Positions 35,263 to 41,144 of a stretch of DNA of 62,092 nucleotides are shown in pieces. The stretch is from positions 420 through 62,511 of the forward strand of contig MGTD01000002.1 of the NCBI GenBank assembly GCA_001799285.1. Reading direction: 5' to 3'. The DNA is from Deltaproteobacteria bacterium RIFOXYD12_FULL_56_24. Lineage in GTDB: Bacteria; Desulfobacterota; Desulfobulbia; Desulfobulbales; Desulfurivibrionaceae. Numbering within the stretch: the first letter of the stretch is position 1; each line of letters begins with the position of its first letter. The notes below the pieces were generated by a model, which ran no database searches, was not told the origin of the DNA, and worked only from the letters and a program-made list of their open reading frames with translations. Position numbers and translations under genes: made by a program.

Positions 35263-35670
35263 GATCGCTGTCATCCGGCGCTGTTTTTGAGGCAGAAAGG
35301 CCAAGGACTTTGCGATATGACTACCCTTACCGGGGGATTTTGTCAAACAGGACGGGATGCTTTCTTGAAATCATGCCTGTTTCTGCTTGGCCTGACATAA
35401 AATGGTTTGACAAGCGCAGGCTATTTCCTTACACCTTATGCATGCTTCATTTTGATTAGTTTAAGAGGATTCTCGATTTCATCACCCATCGGGGAACTAT
35501 AAAATATGATTTTTCAAGGCCACGATGACTTCCGAAGTGGCCCCAGCTAATGCCATTCGAGATAGTCGGGGTAGAGGTGGCAGAAGGTGCAATAGAAAAA
35601 TAGATAAGGATGCCCGCCACATTCTTGGGCACTAATTGATTCCTGATTGATTCTACTAGCCGGAATTCAG
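35263..35670. other. Gene-poor spacer downstream of the barrel gene
   Basis: This 408-nt stretch lies between the uvrC start and the stop of the leftward barrel gene and holds the uvrC promoter. Short frames on both strands between 35510 and 35640 look like possible gene debris, but I cannot assign them. Nothing else was seen. Confidence 0.35.
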
Positions 35671-36579
35671 TCAGAAAGATCTGCTAAGTCCGATCCCGCT
35701 GGTCCAGTCCGGGGCGGCGTTGCTGAGACCTGCGGCGAAGGCGGCCCAAGTTCGCCATCCCCTGCCCATCCGCCACTCCAGGGAGAGCGAAGTTTCGTGG
35801 AAGTCGTCGGCCGTATCCGTGATTTTTTGTCGGAAAGAGTAGGCCCCGGTCGCGTCGAGGTATTTGCCGAGGATGAGGGTGGCTCCCAGGGAACCGTACG
35901 GGACGTCATTGAGGGTCATCAGGCTGGTGTCGCCGGTGATGGTGTAACCCAGCTGGACAAAGGGTTGGAACCGGCCGGCTGGTAATGACACCGCTGCCTG
36001 GGCGCTGTAGTCTGCCTTGCCGGTGCCAAGGCCTTTGTCTTCGTCTGCGGTGGGGAATTTTATTCTGCCGCTGATTTCGACGAGAACGCCGGAGTCCCCA
36101 AAGGTGAAAAAGCCGTAGCCCGCTTCAGCGCTGAGATCACCGAGGCCGGAAACCGTCGACCGTTGCTGTTGGCAGGTCGTGGCGGTTCCCATGTTTGAGC
36201 CGGGTGAGGAATTGCTGCCGGGGCCATTTCCGCCGCTCGGCGGGGCCGAGGTTCCGGCACCGGCGCCGCCGACCATCGCCCCGACCGCAGCACTGTTGAT
36301 CTGGATCGGGCCATCGGCGCCCATGGTCACGTTGCCGAAGCCGCTGAGTCGGACTGAGGGAATGGATAGCGAGGCGAACCACGGACCCCGGGCATAGTCG
36401 ACGGTGAGAGGAATCAGGTCGATACGGGTGTCGTTCTCAAGACCGTACGTCCCGGAGGAATGGGTGTACGACACCGAAAGTCCGAGCAGTCCTTCCTTTG
36501 TTTCCGCGGCGCCCACCGGGACGGATGAAACCAGCCAGGCAACGGCTAGGGCCGCAAGGCCGGTTCGCATACGCCGCAT
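35671..36579 (-). CDS. Putative outer-membrane beta-barrel protein (module gene 3)
   Basis: From MRRMRTGLAALAVAWLVSS the product has 302 residues with a signal peptide cleaved after VGAA. The mature chain alternates polar and hydrophobic residues in amphipathic strands (GLLGLSVSYTHSSGTYGLE, FQPFVQLGYTITGD) and ends in Phe, a typical outer-membrane assembly signal. A low-complexity Gly/Ser/Pro loop occupies about 105-135. It resembles generic transporter-like barrels. The longer frame to 36825 overlaps the upstream barrel gene and is not credible. It is the last gene of a three-gene leftward unit. Confidence 0.7.
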   Translation of the reverse strand: MRRMRTGLAALAVAWLVSSVPVGAAETKEGLLGLSVSYTHSSGTYGLENDTRIDLIPLTVDYARGPWFASLSIPSVRLSGFGNVTMGADGPIQINSAAVGAMVGGAGAGTSAPPSGGNGPGSNSSPGSNMGTATTCQQQRSTVSGLGDLSAEAGYGFFTFGDSGVLVEISGRIKFPTADEDKGLGTGKADYSAQAAVSLPAGRFQPFVQLGYTITGDTSLMTLNDVPYGSLGATLILGKYLDATGAYSFRQKITDTADDFHETSLSLEWRMGRGWRTWAAFAAGLSNAAPDWTSGIGLSRSF

Positions 36580-36640
36580 GACATGATTTCGGGGGATAAA
36601 TTCCCCCCGCTCGCTGATCGAGAAAAAGTCGGCTGGGCGT

Positions 36641-37825
36641 TCAGAAGAACTCAATGCGGAGAGCCGCCTGGAGGAAATATTCCTCGTCGCGGTCGCCCCC
36701 GCTTTCGTGCGCGTAACGGGTTCTGACATCAAAGAAGAATCGGTCCCCCATATCCCAGCTGCATAACAGACTGCCCTCGTTGAGCAATGAATCGTCGTTT
36801 TCCGAGTACTCCATCTGGTATTCAATTTGAACGCTCATTGGGGGAAGGGGTCGCCACTGATGGGCAATGGCCAGATTGTAGATCTTTTCCTCTTCTTCCG
36901 TATAATAACCGCTACCGATGCTGATCCGCAAGCCCTGTAGAAAGAGGGGCCAATGGCTGAGCTGGACGTTGGCGTTCCACTGGGTCGGCCGCGCGGTGCC
37001 ATATTGCTCGTGGTAGAGGCTGCCGCCGATCTCCCAGTTGTCGGCCAGCATGAACCCCGAGGCCAGACCGCTGAGTTCTTTAGCACGAATGTTAAGGGCC
37101 GCACGGTTGTTTGCGAAGTCGTACTCCGGGTCGGTTTCCCGTTCCCTGGTATAATTGGCCGCAGCCCAGAAACCTTTCCCCAGATAATTGATGGCCAGGT
37201 AGCCGGTGGCGAGATGGGTATCGTCGTTGATCCGATAAAAGCCTGAGTCATCCCGATCGGTGAAGCGTTCGTCGCGGACCCTGAGGTTCAGGCGCAGGGA
37301 TGGCGGCAGAGCCAGATCGTAGTCGAAAAATGGTCCCTGGCGCTGGAGGTTGAAATCGGTGTCGTTGAAAAGGTTATTTTCCTGACTGATACGACCATCA
37401 AACCAACCCAGGGACACCGTGTGTCCCTGGCGCAGAGGAAGGCTCAGCCTGGTTTGCATGGTCGTTTCCGACCAGGTGGAAAGAACGTCTCCGTAAACAG
37501 GGTGGAAATCCTCGTGGCCGTACAGTGACAGGTAGGAGCTGAGGGATGCCGACCTCTTCTGACTTTCAGGTTGGCTCCGTTTTTCTGCCCGGCCGACCGC
37601 CTGGCCGCTGCTTGAGGAGAGCGATGGAAGGCCGCTTTCCTCAAGATCAAGGACCCATGACGACATTGAGAGGATTTCCTCGGTGCTCTGCGGCGGATCC
37701 GGAATCGCGCTTGCTTGGTTTTCCGGGTCGGTTGCGGCCTGGGCCCGCAGTACAGCCACAGGGGTCAGCGAAACGGCGAACAGAAAGAGTGAGAAAAAGA
37801 TGAGTTCAGGGGCACGGTTGCGCAT
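36641..37825 (-). CDS. Putative outer-membrane beta-barrel protein (module gene 2)
   Basis: This 394-residue protein has a signal peptide (LIFFSLFLFAVSLTPVAVLRAQA) and a Ser/Pro-rich linker to about residue 90. About 300 residues of amphipathic strands follow, rich in aromatic residues (HTVSLGWFDGRI, LATGYLAINYLGKGFW). It ends ALRIEFF, with the terminal Phe expected of a barrel. I do not recognise a named family. It lies between the calcium-repeat gene (89 nt) and the second barrel (61 nt). Confidence 0.7.
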   Translation of the reverse strand: MRNRAPELIFFSLFLFAVSLTPVAVLRAQAATDPENQASAIPDPPQSTEEILSMSSWVLDLEESGLPSLSSSSGQAVGRAEKRSQPESQKRSASLSSYLSLYGHEDFHPVYGDVLSTWSETTMQTRLSLPLRQGHTVSLGWFDGRISQENNLFNDTDFNLQRQGPFFDYDLALPPSLRLNLRVRDERFTDRDDSGFYRINDDTHLATGYLAINYLGKGFWAAANYTRERETDPEYDFANNRAALNIRAKELSGLASGFMLADNWEIGGSLYHEQYGTARPTQWNANVQLSHWPLFLQGLRISIGSGYYTEEEEKIYNLAIAHQWRPLPPMSVQIEYQMEYSENDDSLLNEGSLLCSWDMGDRFFFDVRTRYAHESGGDRDEEYFLQAALRIEFF

Positions 37826-37914
37826 GGAATGTTTGGTCCGAAGAGAGATGAAAGCCGGGGGCGGGACACGCCACCCGGCTTTCTGTTTTTATGGGAGGAT
37901 TATGGTCGGGAGGG

Positions 37915-38292
37915 TTACCGGCGACCTCTGCCGCCGAAGCCTGATCCCATCAAGCCTGTTCCGGCAGGCACACCGAGGGGGGGAGTGCCCAGCGGCTGAC
38001 CGGTGAGGTCATTGATGCCGTCGCCGTTGGCGTCCATATTGTCGTTGTGCCCATCACCGTTGGCGTCGACAAAGGCAATCCCTTTACCGGTTCCCAGGGG
38101 AAGTCCGGTATAGTCGTTGATCCCGTCCTGGTTAGCATCCATCCGAGCGACGCCAATGCCTGGACCGCTGACCGCGCCTGGGCTGGCGGCGCCGCGGAAT
38201 CTGGCCGCCTGGGAGTCCACCGCGGTCAGCGACAGCATGGTTGCCGCCAGAACTGCACAGGACAGAGAAAAACGCATCAGTTTCTTTTTCAT
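37915..38292 (-). CDS. Exported protein with calcium-binding DxNxDG repeats (module gene 1)
   Basis: This 125-residue protein has a clear signal peptide (MKKKLMRFSLSCAVLAATML to DSQA). Three Asp-rich repeats follow: DANQDGINDYTG, DANGDGHNDNMD and DANGDGINDLTG. They resemble thrombospondin type 3 or EF-hand-like calcium loops. The tail is Gly-rich and ends in Arg. AGAGG precedes the ATG. It is the promoter-proximal gene of the leftward unit, divergent from the DUF6502 gene. Confidence 0.75.
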   Translation of the reverse strand: MKKKLMRFSLSCAVLAATMLSLTAVDSQAARFRGAASPGAVSGPGIGVARMDANQDGINDYTGLPLGTGKGIAFVDANGDGHNDNMDANGDGINDLTGQPLGTPPLGVPAGTGLMGSGFGGRGRR

Positions 38293-38486
38293 GGTCGTAC
38301 CTCTTTTGTTGGGGTTTATTTGTGCGGGAAAAATTCCCACGGATTTGATTTTAGAATACGTGTATTTTTTTCCCACGTCAAATTATTTTTTGTGGTATGG
38401 TAAAAAAAATCTCCGGGAGAGGACGCACCTCTTCCGGGGGTGTTTCCTTCCCGGCCTTGACGCATATATCAGAACGAGAGAATCAA
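38293..38486. promoter_or_regulatory. Shared divergent regulatory region of the envelope module
   Basis: 194 nt separate the two opposite units. It contains the palindrome GGGAA-N3-TTCCC followed by ACG, and a second TTTCCCACG about 30 nt further, which could form an operator. The region is strongly AT-rich around 38345-38405. Confidence 0.4.
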
Positions 38487-39323
38487 ATGAACGAAACCCA
38501 GGGTCCTCAACTTCCCGAGTCATTGGTGACGGCGCTTTCGCGACTGCTTGAACCCCTGGTCCGGCTGCTCATCGGACGCGGCGTGACCTACCCGATGCTC
38601 TGCGAACTTCTGAAAAAGTCTTACGTGGGCGTGGCTGAAGAACGTTTTCCGCTGTCCGGAAAACAACAGACCGACAGCCGTATCCACATCCTCACCGCGG
38701 TACATCGCAAGGACGTGAAAAGGCTGCGGGCTGAGCGCATGGCTACTGTTCCCAGGGCGGTGGCAACCAGTTCTCTGGGGGCGCTGCTGGTTTCCCGTTG
38801 GACCGGCTCCCCCCGCTATCTTGATGACCAGGGTCGCCCGCGGCCGCTATCTGTTGCCGCCACCAAGGGGGAATCTCCTTCCTTTGCCGATCTGATGGAG
38901 GAGGTTAGCACCAATGTTCGGCCGCGGGCTGTTCTGGACGAGTGGCTCCGGCTGGGGGTGGTCCGGCTTGGCGACGATAGGAAGGTCTATCTGAACACGG
39001 AGGCCTTTGTGCCGGAACAGGGCTTTGAGGAGAAGTGCTATTTCCTCGGCGAGAACGTTCGCGCTCACCTGGAGGCCTGTGTCAACAATCTCCAGCAGGA
39101 GGGGGCCACGGCGCCGGAGCGCAATGTCTTCTATGACGAACTTTCCGCAAGCTCGGTGGAAGAACTGCGGGGCATGGCCGCTCAGGAGGGCATGCGGGCG
39201 CTCCAGGCGATCAACCGGCGCGCCCTCGAACTGCAACAAAAGGATGCCGACGCAGAGGAAGCAAACCAGCAGATCCGTTTCGGTTTTTACTGGCATCAGG
39301 AACAGGAAGGGTACGAACAATGA
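38487..39323 (+). CDS. DUF6502 family protein (putative DNA-binding regulator)
   Basis: This 278-residue cytoplasmic protein matches the DUF6502 pattern: an N-terminal helical segment LLEPLVRLLIGRGVTYPML then ELLKKSYVGVAEERF, followed by GKQQTDSRIHILTAVHRKDVKRL, which looks like a winged-helix recognition region. The middle has VLDEWLRLGVVRLGDD. Its function is unknown; a regulatory role is inferred from the fold-like pattern and its divergent position. The ATG at 38487 is preferred over the frame start at 38397. Its stop overlaps the DUF5666 start by 4 nt. Confidence 0.75.
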   Translation: MNETQGPQLPESLVTALSRLLEPLVRLLIGRGVTYPMLCELLKKSYVGVAEERFPLSGKQQTDSRIHILTAVHRKDVKRLRAERMATVPRAVATSSLGALLVSRWTGSPRYLDDQGRPRPLSVAATKGESPSFADLMEEVSTNVRPRAVLDEWLRLGVVRLGDDRKVYLNTEAFVPEQGFEEKCYFLGENVRAHLEACVNNLQQEGATAPERNVFYDELSASSVEELRGMAAQEGMRALQAINRRALELQQKDADAEEANQQIRFGFYWHQEQEGYEQ

Positions 39324-40432
39324 AGAAGATCCGAACCGGCTGCGCCCTGTTTTTCCTGTTGCTGTTTGCCTCCTGTGTGCCGGCGGACTATTCCGGCTCC
39401 CTGGCCGATCGGGGGGAGTCCGGGATCGGCGGTACCGGCCAGCTGGCCGACAAGAAGACCGGCATCGGCGGCACCGGATTTTTAGCCGGAAACGATGGGG
39501 AGGTTTTAGGCATCGTTGGCCGGATCACCGGTTTCGGCAGCATCCTGGTCAATGGGGTCAAGGTGGAGTTCAAGTCGGCCACCCCGGTCTTCCTGGCCGG
39601 GCGCCAGGCCACCTCTGCGGATTTGTCGGTGGGCCAGGTGGTCGAAGTGCTGGCGGTGAACAGCAATGGCACGGTCCGGGCTGAATCGATCGCCATCCGG
39701 CCCGAGGTCGTTGGTCGGATCAGCTCCCCTGCCCCCGATAAAACGGCCTTTCAAATCCTTGGTCAACAGGTGGTGATCGGGGCCGATACCATTCTCCCCG
39801 CCACCTGGTCAAACGGTCCTCCGGCCGGCGCCACCGTGCGGGTGGGCGGTTTCCGCGATGCACAGGGACGGATTTTCGCCAGCCGTATCGAAGAAGGTCT
39901 GCCCGATGAAGCGGATTTTCTCATCGGGGTGGTCCAGGCCAGGTCCGCCGGGGGTGCGGTGGTGGACGGCCTGCCGGTGACTTTTGCCGGAGCGGCCGAT
40001 GATCTCCAGGTTGGCGATATTGTCAGGATCCGCGGTGAGTACCGCCAGGGAACCCTGGTCGCCCAGACCGTGGAGAGGGACAGGCCGGGTTTGTTTCAGG
40101 TCCGGGTGGACCGGCTCCTGGTCGAGGCCGTTCCGGTTGTCGGTCCCGGCGGAGGTTTCAGGTTGGGAACCCTGCCCTTCCGAGTAAAGGAAATGTCCGA
40201 TCTCGATCTTGACCGTCCGCAGGTGGAGGGAATGCCGCTTTTGTTCATGGGCGTTATGGACGCCGATGGCGGATTCAATTTGCAACGCATATCGATGGGA
40301 TCGGCAATAAGCCGTGGCGCAGCTCCCGCCGCGATGGGGCAAGGGAGATCGACGGGGTCATCTTCCACCGGCAAGGCTCCCGTCCGTTCGCCCTTGAGTG
40401 GACCTGGGGCAATCCGTCGAATGGGCCGGTGA
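39320..40432 (+). CDS. DUF5666 lipoprotein
   Basis: This 370-residue protein has a lipoprotein signal (CALFFLLLFASC) that would anchor it to a membrane. Next come two copies of a GIGGTG motif (SGIGGTGQLADKKTGIGGTG). Repeated beta-rich DUF5666 units follow, with VGRITGFGSILVNGVKVEF, LSVGQVVEVLA, VGRISSPAPD and LIGVVQARSAGGAVVDGLP. The C-terminal 40 residues are low complexity. DUF5666 has no established function. Coupled translation with the DUF6502 gene implies a shared role. Confidence 0.78.
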   Translation: MKKIRTGCALFFLLLFASCVPADYSGSLADRGESGIGGTGQLADKKTGIGGTGFLAGNDGEVLGIVGRITGFGSILVNGVKVEFKSATPVFLAGRQATSADLSVGQVVEVLAVNSNGTVRAESIAIRPEVVGRISSPAPDKTAFQILGQQVVIGADTILPATWSNGPPAGATVRVGGFRDAQGRIFASRIEEGLPDEADFLIGVVQARSAGGAVVDGLPVTFAGAADDLQVGDIVRIRGEYRQGTLVAQTVERDRPGLFQVRVDRLLVEAVPVVGPGGGFRLGTLPFRVKEMSDLDLDRPQVEGMPLLFMGVMDADGGFNLQRISMGSAISRGAAPAAMGQGRSTGSSSTGKAPVRSPLSGPGAIRRMGR

Positions 40433-40437
40433 CCGCA

Positions 40438-40457
40438 TATTGGGGTATACCCTGTGA
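40438..40457. repeat. 20-bp palindromic repeat, copy 1
   Basis: TATTGGGGTATACCCTGTGA is centred on a near-perfect palindrome (GGGGTATACCC). An 18-of-20 match occurs at 55087-55106. Both sit near gene ends. Confidence 0.6.
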
Positions 40458-40708
40458 TGAGGTTGATGCGCCTGGCGCTGTCCACCAGTTGCTGAATCCT
40501 GGTCCGACCCAGGGTCAGACCGACCGGGACCCCACCTTCCTGCCGTTTCCACAATACCATTAACAAACCTGGGTTATGCAGTATCACTCCGTCCCTCTCA
40601 TCTCTCCTTCCCCGCAATGATACCCTCTATGCGAAGCTCAAGGATAGCCCACCCAGGCTTCACCAAAAATACTTTTGACGTCACGTGTACAAATAGTATG
40701 ATTGCTTT

Positions 40709-40852
40709 ATGATCAAAAGCTTCAAGGACAAGAAAACCCTAAAACTGCCCAAAGGGAAATGCACCGGCTTTTTTTAAGCCTTTTGCAGACAGGCGGAGAA
40801 GCAACTGCGCGTCCTTGATGCCGCCGGCATCATTAAAGGTGACCAAAATGAA
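40709..40852 (+). pseudogene. Broken higB-type (RelE family) toxin gene
   Basis: The start MIKSFKDKKTLKL resembles HigB toxins, but the frame hits a stop after 22 codons, within a T-rich run. Similarity resumes in another frame with EKQLRVLDAAGIIK and then runs straight into higA. The central and C-terminal catalytic part of the toxin is missing. The toxin is therefore judged inactive. Confidence 0.65.
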
Positions 40853-41144
40853 CAGATTTCCCATACACCCCGGCAAAATTCTCGCCGAGGAACTTGCCGA
40901 ACTCAATATAACCGCCACCGAACTGGCCAAGAATATCCATGTGCCGCCCAACCGGATCTCCCAGATTTTGGCGGGGAAACGCTCCATCACCGTCGAGACC
41001 GCGCTGAGACTCGGGAAATGGTTTGGCACCGGTCCACATATCTGGTTGAACCTCCAGCACACCTATGATCTTGACCTCATCCAGCTGGATCTAAAGCCAA
41101 CCCTTGACGAGATAAAAACCAGAGTGGCTACACCTGCAGCGTGA
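40848..41144 (+). CDS. higA: HigA-type antitoxin (XRE-family DNA-binding protein)
   Basis: This 98-residue antitoxin of the VapI/HigA type reads FPIHPGKILAEELAELNITATELAKNIHVPPNRISQILAGKRSI across about residues 4-47. A family-typical segment follows, TVETALRLGKWFGTGPHIWLNLQ. The helix-turn-helix is intact. AAAGGTGA precedes the ATG at 40848. Its toxin partner upstream is broken, so this is an orphan that may still act as a repressor. Confidence 0.85.
   Translation: MNRFPIHPGKILAEELAELNITATELAKNIHVPPNRISQILAGKRSITVETALRLGKWFGTGPHIWLNLQHTYDLDLIQLDLKPTLDEIKTRVATPAA

Follow-up and report, generated by a model that had tools for sequence, protein, structure and literature searches.

A DUF6502 gene and its tagged exported partner as a proposed regulatory cassette on a probably acquired block of envelope genes

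Comparison of DUF6502 loci indicates that the conserved unit is DUF6502 together with an exported partner protein, and that this unit is widespread. For the locus described here, we consider it likely that DUF6502 is an autoregulator gained by horizontal transfer whose control extends to the envelope genes diverging from it, with the two-gene cassette as the core of the system. The locus lies in a contig of Deltaproteobacteria bacterium RIFOXYD12_FULL_56_24; the window is the whole stretch of DNA analysed, 62,092 nucleotides in length. The pairing, the glycine tag of the partner, the palindrome upstream of DUF6502, the match between its spacing class and the regulator lineage, and the block on which the genes lie were each found by comparison.

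The five-gene locus and the block that carries it

The layout described in an earlier sequence-only reading was borne out in every feature: the DUF6502 and DUF5666 genes overlap (by exactly 4 nt, ATGA), the remaining three genes diverge from them, the shared intergenic region holds a palindrome and the DUF5666 protein contains tandem GIGGTG motifs (Table 1). The start of barrel 2 was kept as listed, the long frame from a TTG at 36825 being judged too long. Barrels 1 and 2 look like outer-membrane barrels in their signals and C-terminal Phe; barrel 2 was also tried as a Pfam outer-membrane protein family and gave no match at E ≤ 1. The three DxNxDG repeats of the repeat protein, a candidate calcium-binding protein of the EF-hand or TSP3-like kind, were recognized by eye, and its matches to EF-hand_5 and FG-GAP_3 fell below the cut-off. 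PADLOC gave no match to a known defence system at the locus.

Table 1. Positions of the features of the locus in the window
Feature	Position	Strand	Remarks
DUF6502 gene	38487-39323	+	PF20112, E = 9e-33, over its cut-off
DUF5666 gene	39320-40432	+	PF18914, E = 1.5e-21, three domains
Repeat-protein gene	37915-38292	-	Predicted secreted, 125 aa, three DxNxDGxND repeats
Barrel 1 gene	36641-37825	-	Signal-bearing, 394 aa, C-terminus ..RIEFF; predicted outer-membrane protein
Barrel 2 gene	35671-36579	-	Signal-bearing, 302 aa, C-terminus ..SRSF; predicted outer-membrane protein
Shared divergent intergenic region	38293-38486		194 nt
GIGGTG copy 1	39422-39439	+	Residues 35-40 of DUF5666 protein; seen in sequence, family motif
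GIGGTG copy 2	39461-39478	+	Residues 48-53 of DUF5666 protein; aligns with family motif
Operator-like palindrome GGGAAAAATTCCC	38326-38338		13-bp class (TGCGGGA-N5-TCCCACG)
Second operator-like palindrome GGGATAAATTCCC	36593-36605		Gap between barrel 1 and barrel 2
Sigma70-like promoter of repeat-protein gene	38353-38381	-	TTGACG-17-TATTCT
Block of 5,255 bp	35393-40647		Exactly the five genes; missing between uvrC and higA-like gene in sister species

In a sister species (G015), window position 35392 joins 40648 directly, between uvrC and a higA-like gene, and in another genome (G016) uvrC adjoins higA with the block missing there too, so that the five genes constitute a single presence/absence unit. 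The linkage assumed in the sequence-only idea of a regulated system is upheld to this extent, as the empty site shows that the five genes came or went together. The GC content of the block is 0.589, the same as that of its left flank. The block was probably acquired horizontally; judging from the DUF6502 tree, it came from another phylum, with Pseudomonadota copies close by, and the nearest plasmid relatives are alphaproteobacterial. DUF6502 is rare near the lineage of the window (two of 58 genomes) and is found in 17 of the 395 genomes of the phylum, both counts including the window's own genome. The stretch upstream of uvrC (35305-40838) differs in gene content between nearly all the species examined within the genus (loci L189-L200) and therefore looks like a variable site. 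A HigA-like antitoxin gene follows at 40839-41144, with no evident HigB partner beside it.

The five genes were not found together elsewhere. The DUF6502-partner pair proposed as part of a conserved envelope module is indeed conserved, but none of the other DUF6502 loci examined contains a homologue of the repeat protein or of either barrel, and the five-gene module was rejected as a conserved system. A search of 395 genomes of the phylum and 72,556 plasmids gave no homologue of barrel 1, and the relatives of barrel 2 (37-39%) stand alone elsewhere in the order. DxNxDGxND repeats recur in ten other genomes of the phylum (L212-L222), in proteins of greater length whose open frames span about 460-570 codons; five of these genomes also have a DUF6502 gene, not adjacent where this was checked.

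The DUF6502-partner pair and its glycine tag

A scan of GTDB contigs gave 385 DUF6502 relatives, from which 80 loci were kept; genes were called with a self-trained gene caller and the DUF6502 positions were re-derived by a six-frame HMM search. In nearly all of about 91 loci from several phyla, a partner gene lies directly 3' of DUF6502 on the same strand and encodes a DUF5666-type or similar exported protein, the commonest spacing being a 4-nt overlap (26 of 88). Among 72 partners, Pfam matches were to DUF5666 in 61, to the OB tRNA_anti-codon profile in seven and to CarboxypepD_reg in three. No other neighbour family recurs at these loci, except for neighbours confined to particular clades and for widespread domains, response regulators among them. 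The genome studied here carries a second DUF6502-DUF5666 pair on another contig, and this recurrence places the pairing in the window far above chance.

Several loci show variations on this arrangement. A 426-aa lipoprotein with internal repeats (L010, 8384-9664) follows the second pair of this genome, and lipoproteins also stand behind the pair in several loci of the phylum (L055, L060, L064, L066, L073). In a Nitrospirota MAG (L115, 5191-5658) and in the Acinetobacter haemolyticus plasmid p4 (L245, 3898-4716), the pair is separated by transposase-like genes. In an open frame of 1071 codons (L067, 7602-10817), DUF6502 is linked through a stretch of low complexity to an exported protein with the tag; this is either a real fusion or two overlapping genes.

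The DUF5666 protein of the window matches PF18914 with 76.9 bits (cut-off 27) over three stretches. It has a lipobox-like sequence, FASC, at residues 16-19 (Cys19), with an atypical Phe at position -3, and is probably an exported lipoprotein, judging from its sequence; most relatives have a clear lipobox, while several from alphaproteobacteria have Tat-type or Sec signals without one. The predicted structure is a row of β domains with strands from residue 62 onwards, single domains of which gave OB-type matches in Foldseek, preceded by a disordered tail (pLDDT below 50 for residues 17-51) that holds the tag. No solved relative of this protein or of DUF6502 was found by sequence, and in the portions of the literature searched DUF5666 appears only in gene or domain lists.

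Partners directly behind DUF6502 share a tag, A[GS]GGIGGTGIS or a variant G-x-x-G-[TS]-G, at a median of ten residues after the lipobox Cys. The latter pattern, which shuffled tails match at about 22%, was present in all 65 partners tested and in two of 18 DUF5666 lipoproteins not directly behind DUF6502, 12 of which came from the same loci (Fisher, 3e-15). In the second copy of the window protein, the glycines corresponding to the near-invariant positions of the family are G48, G51 and G53. Synonymous codons of the tag vary, with third positions free, which places the constraint on the peptide and rules out a site at the DNA level. The tag is kept across different ectodomains, namely OB, carboxypeptidase-regulatory-like and PKD-like (GRGTG in the DUF6502-joined long frame, with PKD assigned by eye). 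It is also kept in partners with Tat-type signals, making a sorting signal specific to lipoproteins unlikely; the alphaproteobacterial partners of this type have a doubled tag, as in the window.

The predicted regulator and its palindromes

The DUF6502 protein of the window matches PF20112 with 113.7 bits (cut-off 27) over profile positions 4-265 of 268, with no other Pfam match and no PDB sequence match. Its AF2 model (pLDDT of 86.5) consists of two winged-helix modules, residues 34-90 and 91-174, which superpose on the DNA-binding domains of IclR/PcaR, MarR and DtxR/MntR proteins over approximately 48-67 residues (1.5-2.8 Å, Z of about 5.7-7). No match was found for the full-length fold (best Foldseek E of 0.07; best VIA Z of 8.1 at an r.m.s.d. 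of 10.7). Z values of this size are common for winged helices, and DNA binding therefore cannot be concluded from the fold by itself. DUF6502 is named in no paper in the literature searched, and the operator, partner and fold of the family are newly proposed here.

Inverted repeats 5' of DUF6502 converge on GGGA-W5/6-TCCC and fall into two classes, one of 14 bp (TTTGGGA-N6-TCCCAAA) and one of 13 bp (GYGGGA-N5-TCCCRC). A relaxed form of the pattern, which was derived from the same loci as those counted, occurs within 330 nt upstream at 75 of 96 DUF6502 loci compared with 14 of 549 control genes (Fisher, 1.5e-63). Extending the search to 2.3 kb, in front of the operon, raises the count to 83 of 96, leaving about 13 loci with no palindrome even at this distance. 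Conservation in the 14-bp class extends to bases outside the search pattern, with T before GGG in 67 of 67 sites and A after CCC in 66 of 67. Most of the strict sites that appeared misplaced either precede a DUF5666 gene adjacent to DUF6502 or fall within a DUF6502 gene that had been called too long. Many cores hold a TATAAT-like box near the start codon, as would be expected if a repressor covered the -10 element, and in Nitrospira the palindrome lies right at the start codon. No relevant published occurrence of the palindrome was found in the literature searched.

The spacing of the half-sites follows the DUF6502 tree. Among 97 rows, nine of the 12 copies with 13-bp sites, that of the window included, fall into one clade (ten rows, 100/99) and three are placed outside it; the tree has some long branches, and its bootstrap support is incompletely settled. 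The second DUF6502 of this genome groups with the 14-bp rows and its own site is of the 14-bp class. Four held-out plasmid copies, from Azospirillum lipoferum 4B (plasmid AZO_p2), Methylocystis iwaonis, Microvirga lotononidis and Pseudoroseomonas cervicalis, all combine an upstream GTGGGA-N5-TCCCAC with a 4-nt overlap and doubled tags. This is a small set, and at two of the four sites the core is less rich in AT. Five Rhizobium plasmids (L241, L242, L244, L246, L247) also have a 13-bp site, ATGGGA-N5-TCCCAT, but downstream of the pair, just 3' of the DUF5666 gene and near flagellar or chemotaxis genes.

In the window, the shared-region palindrome lies 34-46 nt upstream of the repeat-protein start codon and 161 nt from DUF6502, nearer to the repeat gene, and just downstream of the sigma70-like promoter of that gene (one promoter found, 0.2 expected). 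The second palindrome precedes the ATG of barrel 2 by about 14 nt and is weaker because its outer bases are off class (G instead of C/T). A search of the whole genome (3.04 Mb) gave palindromes in about a dozen places; according to our gene calls, which are doubtful around two other sites (L226, L230), the only strong ones outside genes are these two and that upstream of the second DUF6502. The leader of the window DUF6502 also contains a candidate GC-rich RNA hairpin (38409-38454 or, more narrowly delimited, 38413-38454), with a z of only -2.2 relative to shuffles.

These results suggest that DUF6502, probably as a dimer, acts in the cytosol as a regulator with two winged helices in tandem; it would bind GGGA-N5/6-TCCC palindromes at the promoter of its own operon, thereby controlling its own synthesis and that of a translationally coupled exported protein. 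This partner bears a G-x-x-G-[TS]-G tag after the signal peptide and, in most cases, a row of OB-like DUF5666 domains. The earlier suggestion that DUF6502 is a DNA-binding regulator acting on the shared region gains support from the tandem winged-helix model, the conserved palindrome and the agreement of its spacing with the tree. The window copy is a member of the subfamily with 13-bp operators, its close relatives being betaproteobacterial copies and copies on alphaproteobacterial plasmids, and lies on a probably acquired 5.26-kb block; its control probably extends to the repeat protein and both outer-membrane proteins, by way of the shared-region palindrome and that before barrel 2. For this genome, the evidence favours a cassette that has recruited three envelope genes, or carried them in with it, with the same palindrome governing them. 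Of the regulated outer-membrane system envisaged at the outset, the regulated part is consistent with the separate palindrome copy before barrel 2, while a conserved envelope assembly found no support. Export, DUF6502 binding, the role of the tag, the regulation with its sign and any function that the exported proteins may share are all inferred, the regulation from sequence comparison; repression is the likelier sign, since many sites lie over or beside a promoter or start codon.

Alternative readings and comparison with known systems

The three divergent genes might instead be unrelated cargo on the same block, with only the two-gene pair as a unit. The lack of homologues of these genes at other DUF6502 loci, the solitary relatives of barrel 2 and the failure to find any relative of barrel 1 all favour such an arrangement, which we regard as a serious possibility, if the less probable one. 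Against it, palindromes of the regulator's class stand in front of two of the three genes and otherwise occur outside called genes only at the second DUF6502 locus. It is also conceivable, but improbable, that the palindrome serves a different conserved regulator, one that controls DUF5666 genes, DUF6502 being itself no more than a target. Some sites do front a DUF5666 paralogue rather than DUF6502, and contact between DUF6502 and the site is itself deduced by comparison; however, site spacing follows the DUF6502 tree, the two DUF6502 copies present in one genome differ in the class of their sites, and no other gene recurs at these loci.

The tag hints at a different role, in which DUF6502 would be a cytosolic partner of the unexported precursor (a chaperone or export pilot) that recognizes the glycines and uses its winged helices for protein contact. 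Such a role would fit the presence of the tag in every tested partner directly behind DUF6502, whatever the ectodomain and whether the signal is of the lipoprotein or Tat type, and its rarity in DUF5666 proteins elsewhere. It seems unlikely, as it leaves the operator and the match of its spacing class to DUF6502 unexplained, but it could hold in addition to autoregulation. More speculatively still, DUF6502 might sense export of its partner, with recognition of the tag of the unexported precursor in the cytosol adjusting DNA binding; this would likewise explain why the tag is independent of ectodomain and signal type and, if true, would couple expression of the envelope protein and of the extra outer-membrane genes to export.

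With autoregulation by DUF6502 as the preferred reading, two uncharacterized families found in several phyla become one testable system, comprising a regulator family, the DNA site predicted for it in two spacings and a partner whose defining feature is a short tag and not the ectodomain. If the tag does something in its own right, it could represent an unrecognized signal on exported bacterial proteins.

Among known systems, single β domains of the partner resemble OB-fold proteins, including the periplasmic metal-binding domains of SilB/SilF, but the partner has no sequence relation to solved structures and is an exported row of such domains. It shares its three-domain match with Pfam DUF5666 (PF18914), whereas DUF5666 lipoproteins that are not behind DUF6502 mostly lack the glycine tag. 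Each DUF6502 module resembles the DNA-binding domains of winged-helix one-component regulators of the IclR/PcaR, MarR and DtxR/MntR types; DUF6502 differs from these in having two winged helices in tandem with flanking helices, and in the absence of full-length sequence or fold similarity. With Pfam DUF6502 (PF20112), the window protein shares a full-length match and the conserved SRxxxLTGLxRKEVxRL region.
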